Shown here piece by piece: positions 16,858 through 32,004 of a DNA stretch of 32,004 nt (position 1 is its first letter; each line of letters begins with the position of its first letter). Origin of the DNA: Haloferacaceae archaeon (GTDB lineage Archaea; Halobacteriota; Halobacteria; Halobacteriales; Haloferacaceae); the NCBI GenBank assembly GCA_028274865.1, contig JAQCMY010000027.1:1-32004 (forward strand). The letters run 5' to 3'. The position numbers and the translations under genes were made by a program. The notes under the pieces were generated by a model. That model did no database searches, was not told the origin of the DNA, and saw only the letters and a list, made by a program, of their open reading frames with translations.

Positions 16858-17238
16858 ATGCGCCGCGACTCCGGACTCGCCGACGAGGAGCTCGAGAGCC
16901 GACTCGTCGCCGCCTCTCGGACAGCCGTCGGCGACTCGCTCCGCAGCGTGACGTACTTTACGCCGGAGGCGTACGACCAGGTCTACCTCCGTGCGGGCCT
17001 CGACAGCGACGCCGACATCACCGGCTTCGTCGAGCACGAGTCCGTCGGCTTCCGTGCGCACACGGCGTACCGCGGCTCCGAGCTCGGCGGATACCGCTAC
17101 ACCGTCCGCGCGTTCCAGAACGGGTTCCTCGTCCGGGTCACCGAGGCGGACCACGGCCTGTTTTTCACCGTCGACGACATCTCACTCCGGTCCGCGGAGG
17201 AGGGAGCAGAGGCGGTGAGCCGCGTCCTCGCCGACTAG
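16858..17238 (+). CDS. Conserved haloarchaeal protein of unknown function
   Basis: MRRDSGLADEELESRLVAASRTAVGDSLRSVTYFTPEAYDQVYLRAGLDSDADITGFVEHESVGFRAHTAYRGSELGGYRYTVRAFQNGFLVRVTEADHGLFFTVDDI. Confidence 0.8.
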   Translation: MRRDSGLADEELESRLVAASRTAVGDSLRSVTYFTPEAYDQVYLRAGLDSDADITGFVEHESVGFRAHTAYRGSELGGYRYTVRAFQNGFLVRVTEADHGLFFTVDDISLRSAEEGAEAVSRVLAD

Positions 17239-18731
17239 AACAGCGTCGCCGCGACGGTCTGTGCCGTCTCGACGACCGGCCCGAACGCCGGGAGCAGGAG
17301 GAGCGTGGCGAGCGCCGCGCCGACGACCGCGACGTAGAGCCCGACCGGCCGGCGCCCGAGCGAGAGGTCGACCGCCGGCTCCTCGATCCAGAGCGCCCGC
17401 ACTACCCGCGAGTAGTAGAACAGGCTGAGCGCGGAGTTGACCGCGCCGACGGCGGCGAGCCACCAGAATCCGCTGTCGACGGCGGCGTAGAACAGCGCGT
17501 ACTTCGAGAAGAAGCCGCCGAACGGCGGCAGTCCCGCGAGCGAGAACATGAACACCGTCATCGCGACGGAGGCCATCGGCGCCCGTGTCGCGAGGCCGTT
17601 GTAGTCCTCGAACGTCCGGCCGACGCCCCAGTGCTCGACCATCGCGACGAACAGGAACGCGCCGGTGTTCATGAAGCCGTAGACAAACAGGTGCGCCATC
17701 GACGCGCCGAGGACGGCGCCGTTCGGCCCGTCTGCGGACAGCGCGGCGAGGCCGATGAGCGCGTAGCCCGCGTGGCCGATCGAGGAGTACGCGAGCATTC
17801 GCTTGACGTTCTCCTGGGTCGCCGCGGCGAAGTTCCCGAGCGTCATCGTCACCACCGCGAGCACCTGGAAGATGAGGACCCAGTCGACGCCCATCGGGAC
17901 GAGGACGTCGAGCGGGAACGCGCCGACGAACACCCGGAACGCCAGCGCGAAGCCGGCGGCCTTCGACGCCGACGAGAGGAAGGCGCTGACCGGCGCCGGC
18001 GCGCCCTCGTACGCCTCCGGCGCCCAGAAGTGGAACGGGACGGCGGCGGTCTTGAACGCCATCCCGCCGGCGATCATCACGACCCCGAGTCCGACGATTC
18101 CGACCAGGTCGTCGGCTGTCGTCAGCCCCTCGGCGACGGCGCCGAAGGTGAGCGCGCCGGTCGCGGCGTACACCAGCGAGATGCCGAAGACGAGCACCGC
18201 CGACGACACCGCGCCGACGAGGAAGTACTTCAGGCCGGCCTCGCTGCTCCCCTCGTTCTGCTTGAGAAAGGCAACGAGGGCGTACGAGGGCAGAGAGGTG
18301 AGCTCCAGCGCGACGAACGCCGTCGCCAGCGAGTTCGCGGCGGCCATGAGGCTCATGCCCGTCGCGGAGAACAGCACCAGCGCGTAGAACTCCCCGGCGT
18401 AGTCCTGTCCGCGCAGGTAGTCGTACGACGCGACGGACACCAGCGCGGTGACGCTCGCGAACACGAGCGTGAAATAGAGGCTGGTGCCGTCGAGCATCAC
18501 CGCGCCGCCGTAGACGGTCGTCGGGTCGACGCCGCCGGCCAGGAGAGCGGCGGCGACGCCGAAGGCGACGAGCGACCCCGCGGCACCCACGCCGCCGAGG
18601 AGCGCGAGGCTTGTCTCGTCGGGCCGGACAGTGTCGATGACCAGGAGCGTGAGCGCCGTCACGCCGAGCACCACGGGCGGCAGGAGCCCGTCGGCGACAC
18701 CCGCCACCACCTGGACGGGCGTGTCGAGCAT
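17235..18731 (-). CDS. nuoN: Complex I subunit N
   Basis: 498-aa polytopic antiporter-like subunit: LELTSLPSYALVAFLKQNEGSSEAGLKYFLVGAVSSAVLVFGISLVY...AVPFHFWAPEAYEGAPAPVSAFLSSASKAAGF...RMLAYSSIGHAGYALIG. Confidence 0.96.
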   Translation of the reverse strand: MLDTPVQVVAGVADGLLPPVVLGVTALTLLVIDTVRPDETSLALLGGVGAAGSLVAFGVAAALLAGGVDPTTVYGGAVMLDGTSLYFTLVFASVTALVSVASYDYLRGQDYAGEFYALVLFSATGMSLMAAANSLATAFVALELTSLPSYALVAFLKQNEGSSEAGLKYFLVGAVSSAVLVFGISLVYAATGALTFGAVAEGLTTADDLVGIVGLGVVMIAGGMAFKTAAVPFHFWAPEAYEGAPAPVSAFLSSASKAAGFALAFRVFVGAFPLDVLVPMGVDWVLIFQVLAVVTMTLGNFAAATQENVKRMLAYSSIGHAGYALIGLAALSADGPNGAVLGASMAHLFVYGFMNTGAFLFVAMVEHWGVGRTFEDYNGLATRAPMASVAMTVFMFSLAGLPPFGGFFSKYALFYAAVDSGFWWLAAVGAVNSALSLFYYSRVVRALWIEEPAVDLSLGRRPVGLYVAVVGAALATLLLLPAFGPVVETAQTVAATLF

Positions 18732-20252
18732 CTACAGCCCACCCCCCTGGAGAATCGGGACGACGGCGTCCTTTATCATCCCGAACAGGAGGTCCGGGGC
18801 GACGCCGAGGGCGACGATACAGAGGAGCAACACCGCGAGCGGGACGGTGTCGCGGAGCGGCGCCTCCTGAACCTCGTAGTCGGTGTCCAGCCGGAACGGC
18901 CCGAACAGCGTGCGCTGCATCGCCAGCAGGAGGTAGCCAGCCACGACGACGATGCCGAACATCGCCGTCGCAGTGAACACCGGAGCGAACGGCAGCGTGG
19001 TGGAGGCGAAGGAGCCGACGAAGACGAAGAACTCGCCCGCGAACCCGGCCATCAGCGGCAGGCCCATGTAGCCGAACGCGCCCGCGACGAGGATGCCCGT
19101 CGTCACCGGCATCCGGTCGGCCATCCCGCTCATGTCGCCCACCATCCGGGTGTGTGTCGAGTGGTAGATGACCCCGACAGCCATGAACATCAGCCCGGAG
19201 ATGAGCCCGTGGGCCACCATCTGGAACGTCGCGCCCCCGACGCCGTACAGCGTGTACGCGACGAGGCCGAGGATGACGTAGCCCATCGAGGAGACGGAGG
19301 AGTAGGCGACGATACGCTTCAGGTCCTCCTGTGCCAGCGCGAGCATCGCGCCGTACAGCACCGAGAGCACCGCGACCGCGGCGATCGGCACCGCGAGCGC
19401 CGCCGCCGTCTCGGGCAGCATCGTGAAGTTGTACCGGAGCAGGGCGTAGGTGCCCATCTTCAACAGGACGCCCGCCAGCAGCACCGAGACCGGCGAGGGC
19501 GCCTCGACGTGGGCGTCCGGCAGCCACGTGTGGAACGGGACAACGGGGACTTTCACCGCGAAGCCGACGAACATCACGGCGAAGGCGGCGGTCCGCAGGG
19601 CACCCGGCGACAGGCCGAGCAGGGCCGAGATCTGCTCGTTGCGGAGCGCCGCCGCGACGGTCGGGAGGTCGAACGTCTGAACCGGCGCCGCGAGGACGAG
19701 GGCGACGAAGCCGATGAACATCGCCAGCGACGCGACGTTCGTGTAGACGAAGAACTTGATCGCGGCGTACTTCCGGCGCGGGCCGCCCCAGACGCCGATG
19801 AGGAGATACATCGGGACGAGGACAGCCTCCCAGAAGACGAACCAGAGCAGGAAGTCGAGCGACACGAACACGCCGATGAGCGTCGTCTCCATGAACAGCA
19901 CCAGCCCGTAGAACTGCGACCGGCGCTCGTCGATCGCCGACCAGGCCGAGACGATCGCGAGCGTCGTCAGGACGGCGGTGAGGACCACCAGCGGCAGGGA
20001 GACGCCGTCGAGACCGACGTGCCAGCTCACCTCGTAGCCGCCGAGGGTCAGCCACGGCGACACCGTCTCGAAGGCGACCTCGCCGTCGACGAGGGCGTTA
20101 CCCCGTCCGTCGAAGCCGGCCCACAGCAGCAGGCTGCCGACGAGCGGCAGGGCGGAGAACGCCGCCGCCGCCCCGCCCGCGTACTCGTCGGGAACCAGGA
20201 AGGTGACGAGCGCGGCGGCGGCGGTGACGGCCATCAGGGCCGCCAGTATCAC
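18732..20252 (-). CDS. nuoM: Complex I subunit M
   Basis: DFLLWFVFWEAVLVPMYLLIGVWGGPRRKYAAIKFFVYT...VPVVPFHTWLPDAHVEAPSPVSVLLAGVLLKMGTYALLR...LKRIVAYSSVSSMGYV. GTGA start/stop overlap with nuoL at 20249-20252 (alternative GTG at 20261). Confidence 0.95.
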   Translation of the reverse strand: MILAALMAVTAAAALVTFLVPDEYAGGAAAAFSALPLVGSLLLWAGFDGRGNALVDGEVAFETVSPWLTLGGYEVSWHVGLDGVSLPLVVLTAVLTTLAIVSAWSAIDERRSQFYGLVLFMETTLIGVFVSLDFLLWFVFWEAVLVPMYLLIGVWGGPRRKYAAIKFFVYTNVASLAMFIGFVALVLAAPVQTFDLPTVAAALRNEQISALLGLSPGALRTAAFAVMFVGFAVKVPVVPFHTWLPDAHVEAPSPVSVLLAGVLLKMGTYALLRYNFTMLPETAAALAVPIAAVAVLSVLYGAMLALAQEDLKRIVAYSSVSSMGYVILGLVAYTLYGVGGATFQMVAHGLISGLMFMAVGVIYHSTHTRMVGDMSGMADRMPVTTGILVAGAFGYMGLPLMAGFAGEFFVFVGSFASTTLPFAPVFTATAMFGIVVVAGYLLLAMQRTLFGPFRLDTDYEVQEAPLRDTVPLAVLLLCIVALGVAPDLLFGMIKDAVVPILQGGGL

Positions 20253-22291
20253 GTGAACCACCCCCCGACGAGCGCGGCGGCGACGACGAGCGCCGTCAGC
20301 CCGAGCGTCAGCAGGGCGGCGTAGTTCGACACCACGCCGGTCTGGACGTACCGGAGCCGCCGCCCCGAGAACAGCGAGACGGAGGAGACGGCGTTTACCC
20401 CGCCGTCGACGACGCCCTGGTCGACCCCGTCGAGTACCCGCGCGAGGGGCCGGACGAACGACTCGGCCAGCCACGCCTGGTACTCGTCCTGGTAGTAGTT
20501 GTTGTACAGCACCGTCCGCGCCGCGCCGAGCTTCTCGGTGTGCGGGTCCGGGTCGGGGCCGCGGTACAGCACGACAGCCGCGCCCGCACCCACCAGCGCC
20601 AGCGCCAGCGAGACGAGTCCGGCGGCGACCGACGACACCTCCGCGGACGCGTAGCCCGCCTGTGTCTTCAGCAACTCGCCGTAGTGCTCGCTCGTCAGCG
20701 CAGCGAACGCCGACTGCCCGCCGTCGTGGGCCAGCCAGTCGTGGAGGTACTCCGGCGGGAAGCCGAGCACCTCGTGGACCGGCACCGCGTTCAGGGCACC
20801 GGCGGTCGTCGCGAGGACGCCGAGGACCACCAGCGGGGCCTTGACGCTCCAGCCGACACCGTGGGGGTCGCGTGCCGTCTCCGTCCGCGGGTCGCCGTGG
20901 AAGGTGAGCAGGACCATCCGGAAGGTGTAGAAGCCGGTGAAAAGCACCGCGAGCAGCCCCATCGCGTACGCGACGAGCACCGCAGGCGAGCCCGCCAGCC
21001 CGTGAATCAGCGCCTCGTACAGCACCTCGTCCTTCGACCAGAACCCGGAGAACGGGACGATACCGGCGAGCGCGAGCGACCCGGCGAGGAAGGTGTAGTA
21101 GGTGACGGGCATCTTCTCGCGCAGTCCGCCCATGTTCCACATGTCCTCGTCGTGGTGCATCGCGATGATGACCGACCCGGCGCCGAGGAACAGGAGCGCC
21201 TTGAACATGGCGTGGGTGAGCAGGTGGAACGTGGCGGCGACGTAGCCGCCCGCACCCAGCCCGAGCATCATGTAGCCGTACTGGCTGATCGTGGAGTAGG
21301 CGAGCACCTGCTTTATTTCCCGCTTGACGACGCACATCGTCGCCGCGAACAGCGCGGTGAACCCGCCGACGAGCGCGATGACGGCGAGCACCGTCGGGAG
21401 CAGGGCGTAGAACCCGTACACCCGGGCGACGAGGTACACCCCGGCGGCCACCATCGTCGCGGCGTGGATGAGCGCGGAGACGGGCGTCGGGCCCTCCATC
21501 GCGTCCGGGAGCCACGTGTGGAGCGGGAACTGCGCCGACTTGCCGAGGACGCCGCCGAGGATCAGGAGTCCGAGGACAGAGAACCACGTCCGGGCCTCGA
21601 ACCCGAACGTCCGGGCCGACGCCTCACCAGCGAGCACCGCCTCGGCGAGCACCGGGAACGACTCCGGGCCGGCGAACGCCGCCGTACCGAAGGTGGCGAA
21701 GACACCGACGAGGCCGACGAGGAAGAAGTAGTCCCCGAACCGCGTCACGAGGAACGCCTTCTTCGCGGCGCTCGGCGGTCCGGGCTCGCGGAACCAGAAG
21801 CCGATGAGGAGGTACGAACAGAGGCCGACGAGTTCGAAGAAGACGAACGCCATCAGCAGGTTGCCCGCGACGACGAAGCCGAGCATCGACGCCGTGAACA
21901 GCCCGAGTCCGGCGTAGTAGCGTGGCAGCCCCGTCTCGCCCTCGTCGTTCATGTAGCCGAGCGAGAAGACGTGGACCAGGAGGGCGACGAGCGAGACGAC
22001 GAGCAGCATCAGCGCCGCGAGCGGGTCGAGCAGCAGCGAGAAGACGAGCTCCGGGACGCCCGCTGCCGGCGCAGCCGACCAGACGTACACCGTCTCGGCG
22101 GCTCTGTCGCCGGCGAGCACCTGGAGCGCGACCCACGCCGACAGGAGCAGCGACCCGACCGTCGCGGCGATGCCGGGGAGCGCGCCGCCCTTCGGGAGGA
22201 CGCCGGGCCGTGTCAGCGCCGCGCCGACGGCGACGAGGAAGCCCGCGAACGGGAGCAAGACGATCAGGGGCGCGAAGTCGAAGGCCGCCAT
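20249..22291 (-). CDS. nuoL: Complex I subunit L
   Basis: 680 aa; FFELVGLCSYLLIGFWF...KSAQFPLHTWLPDAMEGPTPVSALIHAATMVAAGVYLVARV...IKQVLAYSTISQYGYMMLGLG. Confidence 0.97.
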   Translation of the reverse strand: MAAFDFAPLIVLLPFAGFLVAVGAALTRPGVLPKGGALPGIAATVGSLLLSAWVALQVLAGDRAAETVYVWSAAPAAGVPELVFSLLLDPLAALMLLVVSLVALLVHVFSLGYMNDEGETGLPRYYAGLGLFTASMLGFVVAGNLLMAFVFFELVGLCSYLLIGFWFREPGPPSAAKKAFLVTRFGDYFFLVGLVGVFATFGTAAFAGPESFPVLAEAVLAGEASARTFGFEARTWFSVLGLLILGGVLGKSAQFPLHTWLPDAMEGPTPVSALIHAATMVAAGVYLVARVYGFYALLPTVLAVIALVGGFTALFAATMCVVKREIKQVLAYSTISQYGYMMLGLGAGGYVAATFHLLTHAMFKALLFLGAGSVIIAMHHDEDMWNMGGLREKMPVTYYTFLAGSLALAGIVPFSGFWSKDEVLYEALIHGLAGSPAVLVAYAMGLLAVLFTGFYTFRMVLLTFHGDPRTETARDPHGVGWSVKAPLVVLGVLATTAGALNAVPVHEVLGFPPEYLHDWLAHDGGQSAFAALTSEHYGELLKTQAGYASAEVSSVAAGLVSLALALVGAGAAVVLYRGPDPDPHTEKLGAARTVLYNNYYQDEYQAWLAESFVRPLARVLDGVDQGVVDGGVNAVSSVSLFSGRRLRYVQTGVVSNYAALLTLGLTALVVAAALVGGWFT

Positions 22292-22292
22292 C

Positions 22293-22598
22293 TCACCACC
22301 TCATCGTCGTCGCCTGCGTCACGTCCACGCCGTCGAAGTTGCGGTACAACACCAGCACGATGCCGATGCCGACCGCCACCTCGGCGGCGGCGATCGCGAT
22401 GACGAACAGGCTGAACGTCTGTCCCGTCACGTTCCCCCAGAACTGTGAGAAGTAGACGAAGTTGATATTCGCGGCGTTGAGCATCAGTTCGACGGACATC
22501 AGGAAGAGGAGGGCGTTCTGGCGGATCAACACGCCGGCGACCCCGATGCAGAACACCGCCACGGACAGCAGGAGGTAGTACGTCGGCGGGACCGCCAT
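22293..22598 (-). CDS. nuoK: Complex I subunit K
   Basis: 101 aa; YYLLLSVAVFCIGVAGVLIRQNALLFLMSVELMLNAANINFVYFSQF...IAIAAAEVAVGIGIVLVLYRN. Confidence 0.96.
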   Translation of the reverse strand: MAVPPTYYLLLSVAVFCIGVAGVLIRQNALLFLMSVELMLNAANINFVYFSQFWGNVTGQTFSLFVIAIAAAEVAVGIGIVLVLYRNFDGVDVTQATTMRW

Positions 22599-22957
22599 CA
22601 GTCGTCGTCCTCCTCGCCGGAGCGGCCGACCAGCCGGCGCCCGCCGTCCGAGAGCAGCGCGACGGCGGCGCCGTCCTCCTCGCGCTTCGCCAGCAGGAGC
22701 GACCCGTCGAGGGCGGCGTCCAGCAGGAGCGCGACGGCGATGAACGCCACGAGGAAGCTCTCGCCGGGGACGTCCCCACCCCCCAGCCCGAACATCGCCC
22801 GGCCGATGCTCGCGACCACGTTCGCGTCCGCCGGGAACCCCTGCGAGGCGCCGAACGTCGAGGTGAGCACGAGCGCGGCGGCGACACAGAACAGCGCCAG
22901 CGCCGCGAGCGCCGGGAGGAGGTGCGACCCGAGCCGGAGACGAGGGCGCGTCGTCAC
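22598..22957 (-). CDS. Complex I subunit J, C-terminal half (split NuoJ)
   Basis: 119 aa: MTTRPRLRLGSHLLPALAALALFCVAAALVLTSTFG...GESFLVAFIAVALLLDAALDGSLLLAKREEDG; positioned between NuoJ N-half and NuoK. Confidence 0.85.
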   Translation of the reverse strand: MTTRPRLRLGSHLLPALAALALFCVAAALVLTSTFGASQGFPADANVVASIGRAMFGLGGGDVPGESFLVAFIAVALLLDAALDGSLLLAKREEDGAAVALLSDGGRRLVGRSGEEDDD

Positions 22958-23253
22958 GAGAGCACCTCCGGGTCGGGATCGACGTCGACGTCGGTCTCGC
23001 CGTCGTCCGACCCCTCGCCGCGGACGAGCATCACCGCGAACGTGATGAGGATGAGCACCCCGCCGACGTAGACGAGGACCTGCATCGCCGCGATGAACTC
23101 CGCCCGGAGGATCACGTAGTGGGCCGCGACGGACAGCAGCGCGCCGCCGAGCAGGAGCGCCGAGTGCCAGACGTCACGGACCAGTATCACGCCGAGGCTG
23201 CACCCCACCGTGACGAGGGCGAACAGCGCGAACGCGACCGTTTCGTACACCAT
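22954..23253 (-). CDS. Complex I subunit J, N-terminal half (split NuoJ)
   Basis: 99 aa: MVYETVAFALFALVTVGCSLGVILVRDVWHSALLLGGALLSVAAHYVILRAEFIAAMQVLVYVGGVLILITFAVMLV; NuoJ AxxQVLVYVGGVxVLxxFAVML motif. Confidence 0.92.
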   Translation of the reverse strand: MVYETVAFALFALVTVGCSLGVILVRDVWHSALLLGGALLSVAAHYVILRAEFIAAMQVLVYVGGVLILITFAVMLVRGEGSDDGETDVDVDPDPEVLS

Positions 23254-23334
23254 TGCTCCACGGTCGCTCCGGTACTCGTTTCAAGGTTTCGAGTGTGGCC
23301 GACCCGTCGGGCGTCGCCGGGAGGAGGAGCGCGC

Positions 23335-23796
23335 CTACTCGTAGTCGATCTCGCCCTCGCCCTCGCCGATCCACGCGTCGCGGTCGGGGTTGCGGGAGTT
23401 GAGCGGGTCGATGCCCTTGTACCAGGGGACGTTCTTCAGCTGCTCTTTGTTGTAGACGAACTCGTCTTTCGTGTCCGCCGTGAACTCGAAGTTCTGGGTG
23501 AGGAGGATGGCGTCGACGGGGCAGACCTCCTCACACAGCCGGCAGTAGATACACTGCCCGATGTGGAGGTTGTACTGCTCGCCGTTTCGCTTGTCGTCCA
23601 TCACGATCTGGATGGTGTCGTTCGGACAGACGTTCTCGCACTGCCGACACCAGATACACCGCTCCTGGCTGAACTTGTGGACCCCGCGGAACCGGGGACT
23701 GACCTCCGGCGCCACGTCGGGGTACTCCACGGTGAACGTCTTTCCGTCCAGTGCGTGCTTCATCGTCGTCGCCATGCCCTTGAGGATGCCAATCAT
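23335..23796 (-). CDS. nuoI: Complex I subunit I (2x[4Fe-4S])
   Basis: CIWCRQCENVCPNDTIQI and CIYCRLCEEVCPVDAILL. Confidence 0.97.
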   Translation of the reverse strand: MIGILKGMATTMKHALDGKTFTVEYPDVAPEVSPRFRGVHKFSQERCIWCRQCENVCPNDTIQIVMDDKRNGEQYNLHIGQCIYCRLCEEVCPVDAILLTQNFEFTADTKDEFVYNKEQLKNVPWYKGIDPLNSRNPDRDAWIGEGEGEIDYE

Positions 23797-23797
23797 G

Positions 23798-24913
23798 TTA
23801 CACGATCACTCCCACGAGGATGGCCGTCAGCGCGAGGTTGGCGAAGGAGAGCACGAGCATCCCCTTCCACCCCGCGTCGAGGAACTGGTCGATCCGCAGG
23901 CGCGGGACGGCCGACCGCGCCCACTGGGTGAACAGGAAGAACGCCCACATCTTGACGTAGAACCAGACGAAGCCCGGGAGTACCGGCCCCGCCGGTCCGC
24001 CGAGGAACAGCGTCGCCGCGATGGCGCCGCCGAGGAAGATGTGGATGAACTCCCCGAGGTACAGCAACACGAAGTAGACCGAGGAGTACTCGGTCTGGAA
24101 GCCCGCGACGATCTCGGTCGGCGCCTCGGGCAGGTCGAACGGGTTGCGACCGATCTCCGCGAGGTTCGCGAGGGTGAACAGCGCGAACGCGAACGGGTTG
24201 ACGATCGCGAACCACTGCGGGATCGTCACGCCCGCGACCGTCACGAGGGGCTGGCGCTGGACCGCGACGATCTCCGACATCTGGAGCGTCCCGGCGAAGA
24301 TCACCACCGACGCGGCGGTGACGATCAGCGGAATCTCGTACGCGATGTTCGACGCGATCGCCCGCAGGCCGCCGAGCAGCGAGTACTTGTTGTTCGACGC
24401 GTAGCCCGCCATCACGACGCCGACGGAGGCGATCGATGCCGCGGCGAAGACGAACACCACGCCCGTCTCCGGGTCGGCCAACTGGAGACCGGAGCCGAAG
24501 GGGATCACAGCGAACCCGATGAGCGCCGAGAACGTGATGACGATCGGCGCGAGGTCCCACGCCGGCCGGTCGACGCCGTCCGGGACGATCAGCTCCTTCG
24601 ACAGCAGCCGGACCGAGTCGGCCACGATGATCAGCAGGCCGAACGGCCCGACCCGGTTGACCGCGATCCGGTCGGTAAACGACGCGGTGATCTTCCGCTT
24701 CGCCCACGGTCCGGCGATCGCGGTCGTCGTCAGCATCACGTTCGCGATGAGGAACGCGCCGATCAGTCCGCCGACGACCGCGCCGACGACGCCGTCGAGA
24801 CCGAGCATCCCCGCGATGCTGTCCGCGAGCGGCGCGCTGGGCGGGCGGGAGACCCCCGCGCCCGTCGCGTTCGTCGCGTTCGTGGTCTGTAAGACGACGT
24901 CGCCGCCGGTCAC
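23798..24913 (-). CDS. nuoH: Complex I subunit H
   Basis: RVGPFGLLIIVADSVRLLSKELIVP...ANLAEIGRNPFDLPEAPTEIVAGFQTEYSSVYFVLLYLGEFIHIF...RLRIDQFLDAGWKGML. Confidence 0.97.
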   Translation of the reverse strand: MTGGDVVLQTTNATNATGAGVSRPPSAPLADSIAGMLGLDGVVGAVVGGLIGAFLIANVMLTTTAIAGPWAKRKITASFTDRIAVNRVGPFGLLIIVADSVRLLSKELIVPDGVDRPAWDLAPIVITFSALIGFAVIPFGSGLQLADPETGVVFVFAAASIASVGVVMAGYASNNKYSLLGGLRAIASNIAYEIPLIVTAASVVIFAGTLQMSEIVAVQRQPLVTVAGVTIPQWFAIVNPFAFALFTLANLAEIGRNPFDLPEAPTEIVAGFQTEYSSVYFVLLYLGEFIHIFLGGAIAATLFLGGPAGPVLPGFVWFYVKMWAFFLFTQWARSAVPRLRIDQFLDAGWKGMLVLSFANLALTAILVGVIV

Positions 24914-26577
24914 CGGTCCACCTCACCGAGGACGATGTCGAGGCTGCCGAGCGACGCCACGAGGTCGGGGATGTACTCGCCGTTGGACATCTCCGGGAGC
25001 GTCTGGAGGTTCGAGAAGCACGGCGACCGGATCTTGAACCGCGCCGGCTGCTCGGTCCCGTCCGAGCGCATGTAGATCCCGAGTTCGCCCTTCGCGGCCT
25101 CCACCGCGCGGTAGACCTCCGTGTCGTCGTCCGGGCGGATGGTCCGTGGGACGTTCGACTGGATCGTCCGGTCGTCCGTCGGCCAGTCCTCGAGCAGGTC
25201 GACACACTGCTCGATTATCTTCGCCGACTCCTCCACCTCGCGCAGGCGCACGAGCAGCCGCGAGTAGTTGTCCATCCCGTCCTCCGTGACGACGTCCCAG
25301 TCGAGTTCGTCGTAGTAGCCGTACGGGTCGTCGCGCCGCAGGTCGTAGTCGACCCCCGACCCGCGGGCGACCGGCCCGGTCGCGCCGTAGGACTTCGCCA
25401 CCTCCGGCGGGAGGACGCCGGTGTCGACGGTGCGGACCTGGAGAATCTCGTTCGCCGAGATGAGGTCGTGGTACTCCTCCAGGGAGCCGGGCAGGTGGTC
25501 GAGGAAGTCCCGAATCGACTCGAAGAACTCCTCGCGCGGGTCTGGGAGGTCCCAGACCACGCCGCCGAGTCGGAAGTAGTTGAACATCAGCCGCTGGCCC
25601 GTCAGGTCCTCGAGGATGTTCTGGACCTTCTCGCGGTCCCGCACAGCGTACATGAAGATAGCCGTAAAGTCGCCGTAGACGTCCAGCGCGAACGTCCCGA
25701 CCGCGAGCATGTGTGCCGCGATGCGGCAGAGCTCGGCGCCCATCGTCCGGATCACCTGTGCGTACTCCGGCACCTCGATGTCGGCCATGTCCTCGATCGC
25801 GCGGGCGTACGCCCACTCGTTGAGGAGTCCCGCCGAGATGTAGTCCCAGCGGTCCGGATACGGCATGATCTGGTAGCGGTAGGTGCTCTTCTGACACAGC
25901 TGCTCCTCGCACCGGTGGAGGTAGCCGATGTCCGGGTCGACGTCGATCACCTGCTCGCCGTCGAGCGTCGTCTTGAGGTGGAGTACCCCGTGGGTCGCCG
26001 GGTGGTGCGGGCCGATGTTGAGGTACATCGTCTCGCCCTCGTCGCCCTCTTGGTCGTCCTCGAGCGGGTTGGCGTGCTCGCGAAGCGGGACGATCTGCGG
26101 GCGCTCCTGGTCGTAATCGAGCGAGAGCGGGTGGCCCTGCCACGTCTCGGGCAGGAGGATGCGTCGCAGGTCCGGGTGGTCCTCGTACTCGACCCCGACG
26201 AGGTCGTACGCCTCGCGCTCGTGCCAGTCGGCGGTTCGGAAGACGGGCGCGGCGGACTCGCTCCGTGGGTCGTCCTTCGGCGTCGGGACGACGACACTCG
26301 CCTCGTGTGTCGGGTCGTCGTACGACTTCAGGTGGTAGATCGACTCGTAGCGGTCCTCGTACTCCTGTGCGGTGACACAGGAGAGGTGGTCGAGGTTCGC
26401 CTCCTCGCGGAGCGTCCCGAGGACGTCCTGTACGGCGTCGGGACGGACCACGTAGCCCGGCGCGTTCAGGTGGTCGTCGCGGGAGCGGACGTGCTCGCCG
26501 ACCAGCGCCTCCATCTCGTCGGCGGCGCGGGCGACCGCCGCGGCGTCCGCGTCGGGGCCCGGCTCCTCTAGGCTCAT
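24910..26577 (-). CDS. nuoCD: Complex I fused subunit C/D
   Basis: From ATG 26577: MSLEEPGPDADAAAVARAADEMEALVGEHVRSRDD... NuoC-like ...ADWHEREAYDLVGVEYEDHPDLRRILLPETWQGHPLSLDY, then NuoD-like MYLNIGPHHPATHGVLHLKTTLDGE...DIGYLHRCEEQLCQKSTYRYQIMPYPDRWDY. Confidence 0.96.
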   Translation of the reverse strand: MSLEEPGPDADAAAVARAADEMEALVGEHVRSRDDHLNAPGYVVRPDAVQDVLGTLREEANLDHLSCVTAQEYEDRYESIYHLKSYDDPTHEASVVVPTPKDDPRSESAAPVFRTADWHEREAYDLVGVEYEDHPDLRRILLPETWQGHPLSLDYDQERPQIVPLREHANPLEDDQEGDEGETMYLNIGPHHPATHGVLHLKTTLDGEQVIDVDPDIGYLHRCEEQLCQKSTYRYQIMPYPDRWDYISAGLLNEWAYARAIEDMADIEVPEYAQVIRTMGAELCRIAAHMLAVGTFALDVYGDFTAIFMYAVRDREKVQNILEDLTGQRLMFNYFRLGGVVWDLPDPREEFFESIRDFLDHLPGSLEEYHDLISANEILQVRTVDTGVLPPEVAKSYGATGPVARGSGVDYDLRRDDPYGYYDELDWDVVTEDGMDNYSRLLVRLREVEESAKIIEQCVDLLEDWPTDDRTIQSNVPRTIRPDDDTEVYRAVEAAKGELGIYMRSDGTEQPARFKIRSPCFSNLQTLPEMSNGEYIPDLVASLGSLDIVLGEVDR

Positions 26578-27278
26578 GGCGAGTCGGCCCAGTTGTACCG
26601 CATCACGAGGTCGTCCTCGTCTATCTCCTCGGCGAGCTGGTCGACGACCTCGTCGCGGTCGAGGTCGCCGAACTCCTCGAGCTCGTACGGCTTCACGACG
26701 ACCGGCGAGGACTCGCCGGTCGCGATGCGCTCCTGTAGCTTCGCGACCCCGTAGATGAGCGCCTCGGGCCGCGGGGGACAGCCCGGGACGTGGATATCCA
26801 CCGGGATGACCTCCTCTGCGCCCTTGACGACGTTGTACCCCTCCTGGAACGGGCCACCGGAGATGGTACACGAGCCCATGCCGACGACGAACTTCGGCTC
26901 GGGCATCTGGTCGTAGACGCGCTTCATCCGCGGGGCGAACTTCGAGACGATCGTCCCGGGGACGATGATCACGTCCGCCTGGCGCGGGGAGGCGCGCGGG
27001 ACCCCGGCGCCGAAGCGATCGAGGTCGTGTTTCACCGCGTAGGTGTGCATCATCTCGATGCTACAGCAGGCGATGCCGAACTGTAGCATGAACATCGACG
27101 ACCCTCGCACCCAGTTCATGAACTGGTCGAACTTGGTGAGGATGAACGGCGAGGCGCCGAACGCCTGCCGGAGCTTCGAGTTGAAACGGTCGTCGGTGCC
27201 GCTGATGCGCGCGTCGCGGGTGTCGGTCTCGACCTGTGTCGGGTCCGACCGGAACCGGTCGGGTGCGCTGTCACTCAT
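26574..27278 (-). CDS. nuoB: Complex I subunit B
   Basis: FMLQFGIACCSIEMMHTYAVKHDLDRFGAGVPRASPRQADVIIVPGTIVSKFAPRMKRVYDQMPEPKFVVGMGSCTISGGPFQEGYNVVKGAEEVIPVDIHVPGCPPRPEALI. Confidence 0.98.
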   Translation of the reverse strand: MSDSAPDRFRSDPTQVETDTRDARISGTDDRFNSKLRQAFGASPFILTKFDQFMNWVRGSSMFMLQFGIACCSIEMMHTYAVKHDLDRFGAGVPRASPRQADVIIVPGTIVSKFAPRMKRVYDQMPEPKFVVGMGSCTISGGPFQEGYNVVKGAEEVIPVDIHVPGCPPRPEALIYGVAKLQERIATGESSPVVVKPYELEEFGDLDRDEVVDQLAEEIDEDDLVMRYNWADSP

Positions 27279-27279
27279 G

Positions 27280-27687
27280 TTATGATTCCGTCTTCTGCCG
27301 CTGTGCCCGGGGACTCCTCACCCACTCGACGGCCCCGTTTCGCCAGGCGTAGACGAGGCCGACGACGAGGACGCCGAGGAACACGAACATCGGGACGAGC
27401 ACCGCCGCGAGCGAGACACCCTCCTCCAGCGCGGGCCGGTAGATGACGGTCCACGGGAAGATGAGGACTGTCTCGACGTCGAAGATGACGAACAGCAGCG
27501 CGATCATGTAGTACTGGATGTTGAACTGGACGCGCGCTGTCCCGGTCGGGACCTCTCCCGACTCGTACGTCGCGGCCTTTCCCTGTTCGGGGACGGTCGG
27601 GCGCAGCATCGCGGACGCAGCCATCATCCCGAGCGGGATGCCGACGGCGACGACCCCGAGTGCCCCGACTGCTATCCACTCATTCAT
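27280..27687 (-). CDS. nuoA: Complex I subunit A
   Basis: YESGEVPTGTARVQFNIQYYMIALLFVIFDVETVLIFPWTVIY. Confidence 0.97.
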   Translation of the reverse strand: MNEWIAVGALGVVAVGIPLGMMAASAMLRPTVPEQGKAATYESGEVPTGTARVQFNIQYYMIALLFVIFDVETVLIFPWTVIYRPALEEGVSLAAVLVPMFVFLGVLVVGLVYAWRNGAVEWVRSPRAQRQKTES

Positions 27688-29630: not shown

Positions 29631-31367
29631 TTAAGCCTGCCGTGCCGCCGAGCGGTCGACGAAGACGACGACTCGACTCCCCCAGAGCCGGTGGCGGTGT
29701 TCGTAGACGGCGTAGCCGTCCAGTCGCGGTTCGAGCTCGGAGCGGTCCCAGTCCATCGCCACCACGACCGGCGGCGGGTCGGCCGGGAGGCCGGCGGCGG
29801 GTGCGGTGCTCGTGACCTCGGCGCCGTAGCGCTCGAAGTACCACGGGAGCGGGAGCCGGCTGTGCCAGTTCGGCCCCCCGACCGGCGGCTGGTCGGCGCT
29901 CGACTCGTCTGCCACGTGCAGGACGGTGTCGCCGTTCGCCGGGCTGGGCGTGCCGTAGTAGAGCACGTCCGGCTCCGGACCGTCGTCGGTCGCCGCGACG
30001 ACGGGCCCGACGTTGTCCTCCAGAGTCGCTTTCAGCCCGTTACCGGGCTGAGCGTACTGGAGCACCGCGCCGTCGGACCGGTCCGTGCTGTTGTGGTAGG
30101 CGACGTTCGCGCCCGCTACGCCGGAGGCGGCGGCGAGAACGACCAGCGCAGCCGCGAGGGTCGCTGCCCGGCCCGGCACCCGGTCGCCGTCGAGCGGCGC
30201 GGACGCCGCGGTGGCGCGCCGGTAGAGCGCCGCCAGCCCGACCGACGCCGGCACCGCGAGCGGGAGCACCGCGTGGACCGCCGCCCACGGCGCCCGGATA
30301 TCGGTCGCGATCGGGTAGCCGAGGACGCTCGCGAGTCCCCAGTATGCCGCGAACGCGACGGCGTCGCGCCGCCCGCGGTCGGGAGCGTAGCCGTCGACGA
30401 CGAAGCCCACGACGGCGAGGACGACGACGGCGGGCGCACCGTACACCAGCGTCTCGAGGTAGTCGTAGACGTACGGGAGGTACGGGTGTGACTGGTGCGG
30501 GCCGCTGAGCCACGTCCCGGTGAACTTCGTCCACGACCCGACCGTCGCCTCGCCGGCGACGCCCGGCAGCTGCGCGGGCGACCCGAGCGCGGTCCACAGC
30601 GTGGGCCGGGGCGCGTAGAAGAAGACCACGACGGCGACGAAGACGGCGAGCCACCCGCCGACGGCGAGCGCCGAGAGCGCCACGCCGCGCCGCGTCGACC
30701 CGCCCCACGAGCGCAGTCGGCTGTCGAGCGCGTCGACCCACGCGCCGAACACCCGTCGGAGCGACTCGCCCCCCGCCGTCCGCTCGACGAGTCGGTGGTC
30801 GACCAGGAGCGCCCCCGCGCCGGCGAAACAGAGGACGTAGACGAGTGCGTTCTCCTTCGAGGCGAACGCGAGCGCGAGCGAGACGGCGCCGAGGACGGCG
30901 AACGACGCCCGGCGTGTGTCGAACGCCCGGACGACGAGGACGAGCGCGGTGACGGCGAAGGCGCCGACGAGCACGTCGCTGCGCATGAACCGCGAGTAGT
31001 AGAGCAACACCGGGTTCGCCGCGAGCACCAGCGAGAGCGCGACGGTCTCGTCGTCGCGCAGACGCCCCCGGAGTCCGAGCGCCGCGAGGGGGAGCAGCCC
31101 GCCGACGAGGGCGACGGCGAGGCGCGCGCTGAAGTCCGAGGCGCCGAGGAGCGCGAAGACCGGGTCACTCACCACCGGGAGGAACGGGCCGTGGATGATC
31201 GGTCGGTAGGTGAGCTGGCCCGTCTCGTGGTACCGCAGCGCCCAGTAGGCGACGCGTGCCTCGTCGAAGTGCATCACCCGGCTGCCGAGACCGACGAGCC
31301 GGGCGGCGAGCGCGAGAACGGTCAGTCCGACGACGGCGAGCGCGGGTCGGTCGAGCGCGCGGCGCAT
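29631..31367 (-). CDS. TIGR03663/Agl23-type membrane protein (glycosyltransferase-like, flippase-associated)
   Basis: MRRALDRPALAVVGLTVLALAARLVGLGSRVMHFDEARVAYWALRYHETGQLTYRPIIHGPFLPVVSDPVFALLGASDFSARLAVALVGGLLPLAAL...; typical N-terminal HFDEARVAYWxLRYxETGxxxYRPIxHGPFLP. Confidence 0.88.
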   Translation of the reverse strand: MRRALDRPALAVVGLTVLALAARLVGLGSRVMHFDEARVAYWALRYHETGQLTYRPIIHGPFLPVVSDPVFALLGASDFSARLAVALVGGLLPLAALGLRGRLRDDETVALSLVLAANPVLLYYSRFMRSDVLVGAFAVTALVLVVRAFDTRRASFAVLGAVSLALAFASKENALVYVLCFAGAGALLVDHRLVERTAGGESLRRVFGAWVDALDSRLRSWGGSTRRGVALSALAVGGWLAVFVAVVVFFYAPRPTLWTALGSPAQLPGVAGEATVGSWTKFTGTWLSGPHQSHPYLPYVYDYLETLVYGAPAVVVLAVVGFVVDGYAPDRGRRDAVAFAAYWGLASVLGYPIATDIRAPWAAVHAVLPLAVPASVGLAALYRRATAASAPLDGDRVPGRAATLAAALVVLAAASGVAGANVAYHNSTDRSDGAVLQYAQPGNGLKATLEDNVGPVVAATDDGPEPDVLYYGTPSPANGDTVLHVADESSADQPPVGGPNWHSRLPLPWYFERYGAEVTSTAPAAGLPADPPPVVVAMDWDRSELEPRLDGYAVYEHRHRLWGSRVVVFVDRSAARQA

Positions 31368-31513: not shown

Positions 31514-32004
31514 GTGAACCCGGACCGTGTCGACTCGGCTGTCGACCTCGTGTACGGACTGTTGATCGCCGTCTCTGTCGGGCTCATCGTCGTCGTCGGC
31601 ACCGCCGTCGGGGTCGCGTTCGGCTTCGGCGTCCTCGTCTCGTACGTCCTCCACGTCTCGTGGAAGATGGCGCGGTTCGACCCGGACTGGATGACCAGGG
31701 CCGTCGAGGAGACGGTCGACGAAACCGTCGAGCAGGCTGTCGGCGACACCGTCGAGGACGCAGTCGACGAAACCGTCGAGGAGACCGTCGAGAAGACCGT
31801 CGGTGAAACTGTCGAGGACGCAGTCGACGAAACCGTCGAAGAGAGGGTGCGAGAGACCGTCGACGAAACCGTCGAGGAGACCGTCGAGAAGACTGTCGGT
31901 GAAACTGTCGAGGACGCAGTCGACGAAACCGTCGAAGAGAGGGTGCGAGAGACCGTCGACGAGACCGTGAAACAGACCGTCGACGAGCAGATGCAGGCGG
32001 AGGA
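31514..32004 (+). CDS. Membrane-anchored tetrapeptide-repeat protein, partial (3' end beyond window)
   Basis: Open frame to the window end from GTG 31514 (alternative in-frame GTG 31487): VNPDRVDSAVDLVYGLLIAVSVGLIVVVGTAVGVAFGFGVLVSYVLHVSWKMARFDPDWMTR + AVEE TVDE TVEQ AVGD TVED AVDE TVEE TVEK TVGE TVED AVDE TVEE RVRE TVDE ... Not in the ORF track because no stop is reached. Confidence 0.85.
   Translation, partial: MNPDRVDSAVDLVYGLLIAVSVGLIVVVGTAVGVAFGFGVLVSYVLHVSWKMARFDPDWMTRAVEETVDETVEQAVGDTVEDAVDETVEETVEKTVGETVEDAVDETVEERVRETVDETVEETVEKTVGETVEDAVDETVEERVRETVDETVKQTVDEQMQAE
31700..31987 (+). repeat. 24 consecutive 12-bp units encoding (T/A/R)V-x-x tetrapeptides
   Basis: Codon-by-codon reading from gccgtcgaggag (31700) to accgtcgacgag (31987), no frame interruptions. 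Confidence 0.97.
31766..31957 (+). repeat. 96-bp tandem duplication (8 tetrads, 32 aa) with one mismatch
   Basis: gacgaaaccgtcgaggag...gagagaccgtc at 31766-31861 and 31862-31957; sole difference C31798 vs T31894, synonymous (acc/act). Confidence 0.96.

Follow-up and report, generated by a model that had tools for sequence, protein, structure and literature searches.

What is the role of a protein that is little more than a hydrophobic segment followed by a monotonous four-residue repeat? The question is raised by the last reading frame of the window, i.e., the whole 32,004-nucleotide stretch of Haloferacaceae DNA analyzed here.

The reading frame at the contig end

The frame begins with a GTG at 31514 (GTG AAC CCG), where the homologues align with [M/V/L]NPxRVD, and it stays open up to 32004, the last base of the contig. 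The 3' extension proposed in an earlier sequence-only reading thus stops at the contig end itself, and the C-terminus was not recovered. Judging from the final residues, VDEQMQAEE, which resemble the ends of homologous arrays (e.g., TLEEQRAAE), the array may be almost complete within the window. In A07HB70 (L036/L060), the next closest genome, the array is interrupted by an N-run, leaving the window frame without a full-length close relative. According to the list of open reading frames, the complementary strand of the GC-rich repeat is also open in places. Therefore, openness alone proves nothing, and it is conservation that shows a real gene. The features of the frame are summarized in Table 1.

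Table 1 Features of the hairpin-tetrad protein gene in the window
Feature	Position	Strand	Basis
Whole frame of the PiT-associated hairpin-tetrad protein, 3' end missing at the contig end	31514..32004	+	Homologues
First hydrophobic helix of the hairpin, residues 3-28	31520..31597	+	AF2; conserved P3, V6, D7, D11, Y14, G15
Second hydrophobic helix, residues 30-54, ending WKMAR	31601..31675	+	AF2; invariant residues in the alignment
Basic/aromatic junction WKMARFDPDWMTR, invariant core WKM-x-R-x-DP-x-WMT	31661..31699	+	Alignment A1
25 uninterrupted x-V-x-x tetrads, putative cytoplasmic acidic helix	31700..31999	+	In-register count; DNA tandem repeats
96-bp tandem duplication, 2.3 copies, 95% match, which doubled part of the array	31763..31983	+	TRF

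Elsewhere in the window, a long run of respiratory complex I (nuo-like) genes occupies 17235-27687 on the minus strand. Next come purE/purK-like genes and a gene for a TIGR03663-like membrane glycosyltransferase (29631-31367, minus strand), all of these genes being named from their translations.

An unnamed haloarchaeal family

With the first 69 residues as query, matches were obtained in 105 of the 148 genomes of the same taxonomic family. The profile A1 detected the family in 175/295 genomes and 61/89 genera of the order, named members being found, among others, in Halobacterium salinarum, Haloglomus, Haloarchaeobius, Halorientalis, Natronorubrum and Halobiforma. The tetrad protein is thus a real, conserved and unnamed haloarchaeal family. 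The lack of any homologue combining a membrane segment and tetrads, named in the sequence-only reading as grounds against it, is contradicted by this distribution. A Pfam scan up to E=10 gave nothing above the cut-off, and PF01865 was absent among the best 25 of the 30 weak matches. CdrL_M, GvpQ, MarP and a T3SS translocon (Pfam/NCBIfam) were rejected, as these matches were all far under the cut-off and of low complexity, most of them lying in the array. Neither a sequence search nor a fold search of the PDB with the tetrad protein gave a match, and a literature text search with tetrad strings retrieved no paper on the family.

The membrane hairpin is the most uniform part of the protein, with ~77% identity (mean column identity, alignment A1). 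AF2 predicted two helices in the window protein (H3-28 and H30-54) and reproduced the same hairpin in the H. salinarum protein (H3-28 and H30-55). The membrane anchor of the sequence-only reading is therefore retained, and of its two options for the ~40-residue hydrophobic segment, the hairpin is favored over a single transmembrane helix. Besides the first-helix residues given in Table 1, which are invariant, G33, A35, F36, G39, H47, W50-K51-M52, R54, D56-P57 and W59-M60-T61 do not vary from the second helix onward. As for topology, basic residues mark the cytoplasmic side of membrane segments (positive-inside rule). They are found in the N-terminal segment and after the second helix, and none in the hairpin loop, which would place the array in the cytoplasm. 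The earlier suggestion of a cytoplasmic or surface stalk can thus be narrowed to the predicted cytoplasmic location, the surface being unlikely.

The tetrad array

After WKMARFDPDWMTR, 25 tetrads follow one another without a break, with V in the second position (M once), which agrees with the earlier count of at least 24. In 20,000 composition shuffles of the 100 array residues, the longest in-register run was 10 and the mean 3.0. Across homologues, uninterrupted runs of 3 to 66 tetrads start in the same register after the junction, some of the shortest being arrays that a single 3-residue spacing interrupts, and others being truncated at contig ends. Homologues with different tetrad numbers, as anticipated in the sequence-only reading, therefore exist. 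Natural register-shift variants are represented by L022, L023 and L026, whose related arrays are broken once near the start (TVQDVERSV / TVQEVEQSV) before the tetrads resume. Beyond the array comes either an acidic tail or VDERIDRRPREDEIEELI; in Natrialbaceae-type members, heptad-spaced residues stand before VDERIDRRPREDEIEELI.

The composition of the arrays is strongly position-dependent. The four positions hold T (72%), V (95%), E, G or D (50, 25 and 13%) and E or K (67 and 21%), respectively. At the DNA level, TRF detected nested 24-, 60- and 96-bp tandem repeats, which indicates that the array grew by duplication. The tetrads of the window differ from one another chiefly in the third bases of their codons (0.65, 0.28, 0.72 and 0.61), against a difference of 0.00 for the second base of the codon for Val, indicating that the protein pattern has been maintained. 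All four codons are used across the arrays for both Thr (ACG 493, ACC 349, ACA 132, ACT 90) and Val (GTC 998, GTG 241, GTT 87, GTA 82). Together with the variable third positions, this usage points to selection on the protein, and conservation of the protein under free mixing of synonymous codons excludes a mere DNA repeat.

Could the array nonetheless be a low-complexity expansion without selected function, the hairpin alone being functional? The 12/24/60/96-bp DNA repeats of which it is built, the wide range of run lengths, and a member beside a PiT permease gene with only 4 tetrads (L044) would be in line with such an origin. We consider it improbable, since the spacing of V/I/L/M residues is exactly 4 in 97.6% of cases (44 proteins), substitutions concentrate at third codon positions, and the E/K pairing is ordered. 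Indeed, K-K at successive tetrads is rare (5 observed vs 66 expected), and E-K and K-E are enriched (298 and 300 vs 207 expected). This pattern fits an alpha-helix with i/i+4 salt bridges.

The region after the junction has a median net charge of -0.27 per residue. AF2 modeled the hairpin and one long helix, and Foldseek of this model gave no PDB match. As AF2 models the array with low confidence (57-72 for the window protein and <50 over most of the H. salinarum array), the long acidic alpha-helical rod is a structure that we infer rather than read from the model. The conclusion that the repeat is neither a heptad nor a hendecad holds. The spacing of canonical coiled coils (3.5-3.67, heptad/hendecad) is not that of the tetrad arrays, and 3-4 spacing is confined to the C-tails of Natrialbaceae-type members. 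The upper limit of the coiled-coil period is expected near 3.9, with 3.8 as the known extreme (PMC4786415). With a strict period of 4.0, the array therefore lies beyond known coiled-coil geometry.

Linkage to PiT permeases

The best functional clue lies outside the window and was hence missed by the sequence-only reading. Clustering of the reading frames around 35 tetrad loci revealed one strongly conserved neighbor of ~392 aa, read from its sequence as a PiT permease. PF01384 permeases transport inorganic anions and are usually called phosphate transporters; for the cognate subtype, sulfate is also a possible substrate. A PiT was found in 148/148 genomes in the PF01384 search, and the cognate subtype was defined with the PiT of L033 as query at E<1e-143. 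At this threshold, it is present in 101/105 tetrad-positive vs 2/43 tetrad-negative genomes of the taxonomic family; the threshold was chosen after a gap was seen in the score list, and 1e-140 gives 101/105 vs 3/43. The corresponding Fisher P of 2e-29 ignores phylogeny. Within the eight mixed genera, the tetrad gene and the cognate PiT go together with one exception, and the exact stratified P of 5e-9 is still subject to joint loss of adjacent genes in one deletion. No tetrad array was seen nearby on inspection of the two genomes with a cognate PiT and no tetrad gene (G020 and G093).

The two genes lie within 6 kb of each other in 60/104 genomes, on the same strand in 44 and divergently in 16, the latter arrangement being seen in Natrialbaceae-type loci. 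At most of the clustered loci, PiT follows the tetrad gene directly on the same strand. It is downstream in 43 of the 44 same-strand pairs and upstream in the remaining one (G031). Stop and start codons overlap (ATGA or TGATG) at 7/15 junctions examined (L033, L034, L035, L051, L052, L053 and L055). In H. volcanii, among gene pairs with a spacing of -8 to +10 nt, 45.2% code for subunits of heteromeric complexes, vs 5.6% among pairs more than 20 nt apart (PMC10666635). A partnership with specific PiT subtypes is thus well supported by operon structure, gene order in two orientations and co-occurrence. UspA and an AsnC-type regulator were also considered as partners and rejected, because they occur near some loci only inconsistently. 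The AsnC-type HTH regulator (~256 aa), whose C-terminal part resembles TrkA-C, lies within ~5 kb of the tetrad gene at L057, L059, L065 and L069.

The overlapping junctions could also mean that the upstream frame is a translational leader, setting PiT expression by termination-reinitiation while its protein product matters little. This coupling is established in haloarchaea (PMC10666635). Such a role seems very improbable for a gene whose hairpin is near-invariant across the order and whose tetrad residues stay the same while synonymous codons vary, and which also occurs in divergent and unlinked arrangements.

The cognate PiT is not within 6 kb in 44/104 genomes, including most of the large genus g13. 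These unlinked cases, the great variation in array length and the long acidic rod, typical of scaffolds, are what would be expected if the protein were a general tether or scaffold at the membrane, serving cell shape, the envelope or the organization of the cytoplasm, with PiT proximity being incidental. This alternative is unlikely, as the co-occurrence with one PiT subtype holds without adjacency and within genera: in nearly all genomes with unlinked genes, the cognate PiT is present elsewhere. Adjacency in two orientations and a second clade found independently beside other PiT subtypes also speak against it.

In the window's own genome (80% complete), an intact cognate PiT was not found, which ruled out joining the window to a PiT-bearing contig. 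In the nearest relative, PiT lies ~4 kb upstream of the tetrad gene rather than directly downstream. The own genome also holds a PiT-like frame with one in-frame TAG (L074, G000:C212:5068-5475). Its match to the PiT profile is confined to the two ends, and it looks decayed or misassembled.

Other observations concern PiT paralogues. Several haloarchaeal paralogues (L076, L078, L081, L084 and L089) lie amid homoserine acetyltransferase and O-acetylhomoserine sulfhydrylase-like genes, with a 2Fe-2S ferredoxin gene also nearby. Given these neighbors from methionine biosynthesis, it is possible that some "phosphate" PiTs carry sulfate. A protein of ~388 aa (MTDATPADASEPADSDVSDLVRRLREARDAVDD...) recurs near the tetrad-less PiT loci L081, L082, L083 and L086.

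A second hairpin-tetrad clade

A distant relative (L090:6299-6877) was found around a different PiT subtype. The hairpin of this second clade reads D/E-x-x-YG ... AAF-x-GGLV-x-GY ... W-E-x-M and is followed by V tetrads. Profile comparison related the two clades with a probability of 88, an E-value of 3e-6 and 28% identity, and a search with the second clade picked up a protein of the first (L106) at E 6e-4. A PiT is located within 1.5 kb at 11/11 loci of the taxonomic family and at 5/8 further loci (L109, L112, L113, L114 and L116), and none was found within this distance at L115, L117 and L118. In all, the second clade stands beside PiT subtypes other than those of the first at 16/19 loci, a very divergent subtype among them.

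Comparison with known systems

In bacteria, the pairing of a distinct accessory protein, PhoU or PitR, with each phosphate importer family is established, and PitR adjusts phosphate homeostasis together with its PiT (PMC13170248). Like PitR/DUF47 (PF01865, PhoU-like), which is found in bacteria and many archaea, the tetrad gene is a small gene beside one PiT permease that travels with its cognate transporter. Unlike PitR, which is PhoU-like and has no hairpin, the tetrad protein consists of a membrane hairpin and a repeat rod, and its sequence gave no match to the PhoU-like domain (PF01865) above the Pfam cut-off or among the best 25 of the 30 weak matches. Small membrane proteins of the SCO1846 type are encoded beside pitA, often where the genome has no PitR (PMC13170248). 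The haloarchaeal hairpin protein resembles this bacterial type in these respects.

As for the array, single alpha-helix (ER/K) rods are charged helices with i/i+4 E-K pairing. The array has the same pairing but differs in its Val at every fourth residue and its strongly negative net charge. Right-handed coiled coils (hendecad, pentadecad and the 19/5 of YadA) also have a long in-register hydrophobic stripe with a period above 3.63, whereas the period of the tetrad array is strictly 4.0, kept for as many as 66 tetrads.

Proposed role and significance

PF01865 was detected in only 8/60 of these haloarchaeal genomes. As PiT is universal in the sampled genomes and PF01865 rare, the most economical interpretation is that the accessory position is filled by the hairpin-tetrad protein. 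We put the probability that the frame encodes a membrane accessory subunit of PiT-family permeases, with a cytoplasmic acidic alpha-helical rod, at about 0.7. It is probably a previously undescribed PiT partner.

Both the structure of the rod and the regulatory mechanism are what we infer from these patterns. The hairpin, with its N and C termini in the cytoplasm, would dock on the permease within the membrane. The acidic helix, stiffened by i/i+4 Glu-Lys pairs, would project into the cytoplasm. The protein may then act on the permease much as PitR/DUF47 acts on bacterial PiT, by adjusting its activity, its clustering or its coupling to a partner in the cytoplasm. The number of tetrads would determine how far the rod reaches, and not its specificity.

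A bolder version, put forward only tentatively and rather doubtful as a whole, is a non-PhoU class of PiT accessories that has split into two clades paired with different PiT subtypes, and that has a continuous helical rod with a true period of 4.0 beyond known coiled coils. Arrays of up to 66 tetrads offer a natural test of the upper helical coiled-coil period in molar salt. If the accessory role is true, a widespread membrane protein unlike PhoU/PitR would explain how haloarchaea control the import of phosphate or a related anion.
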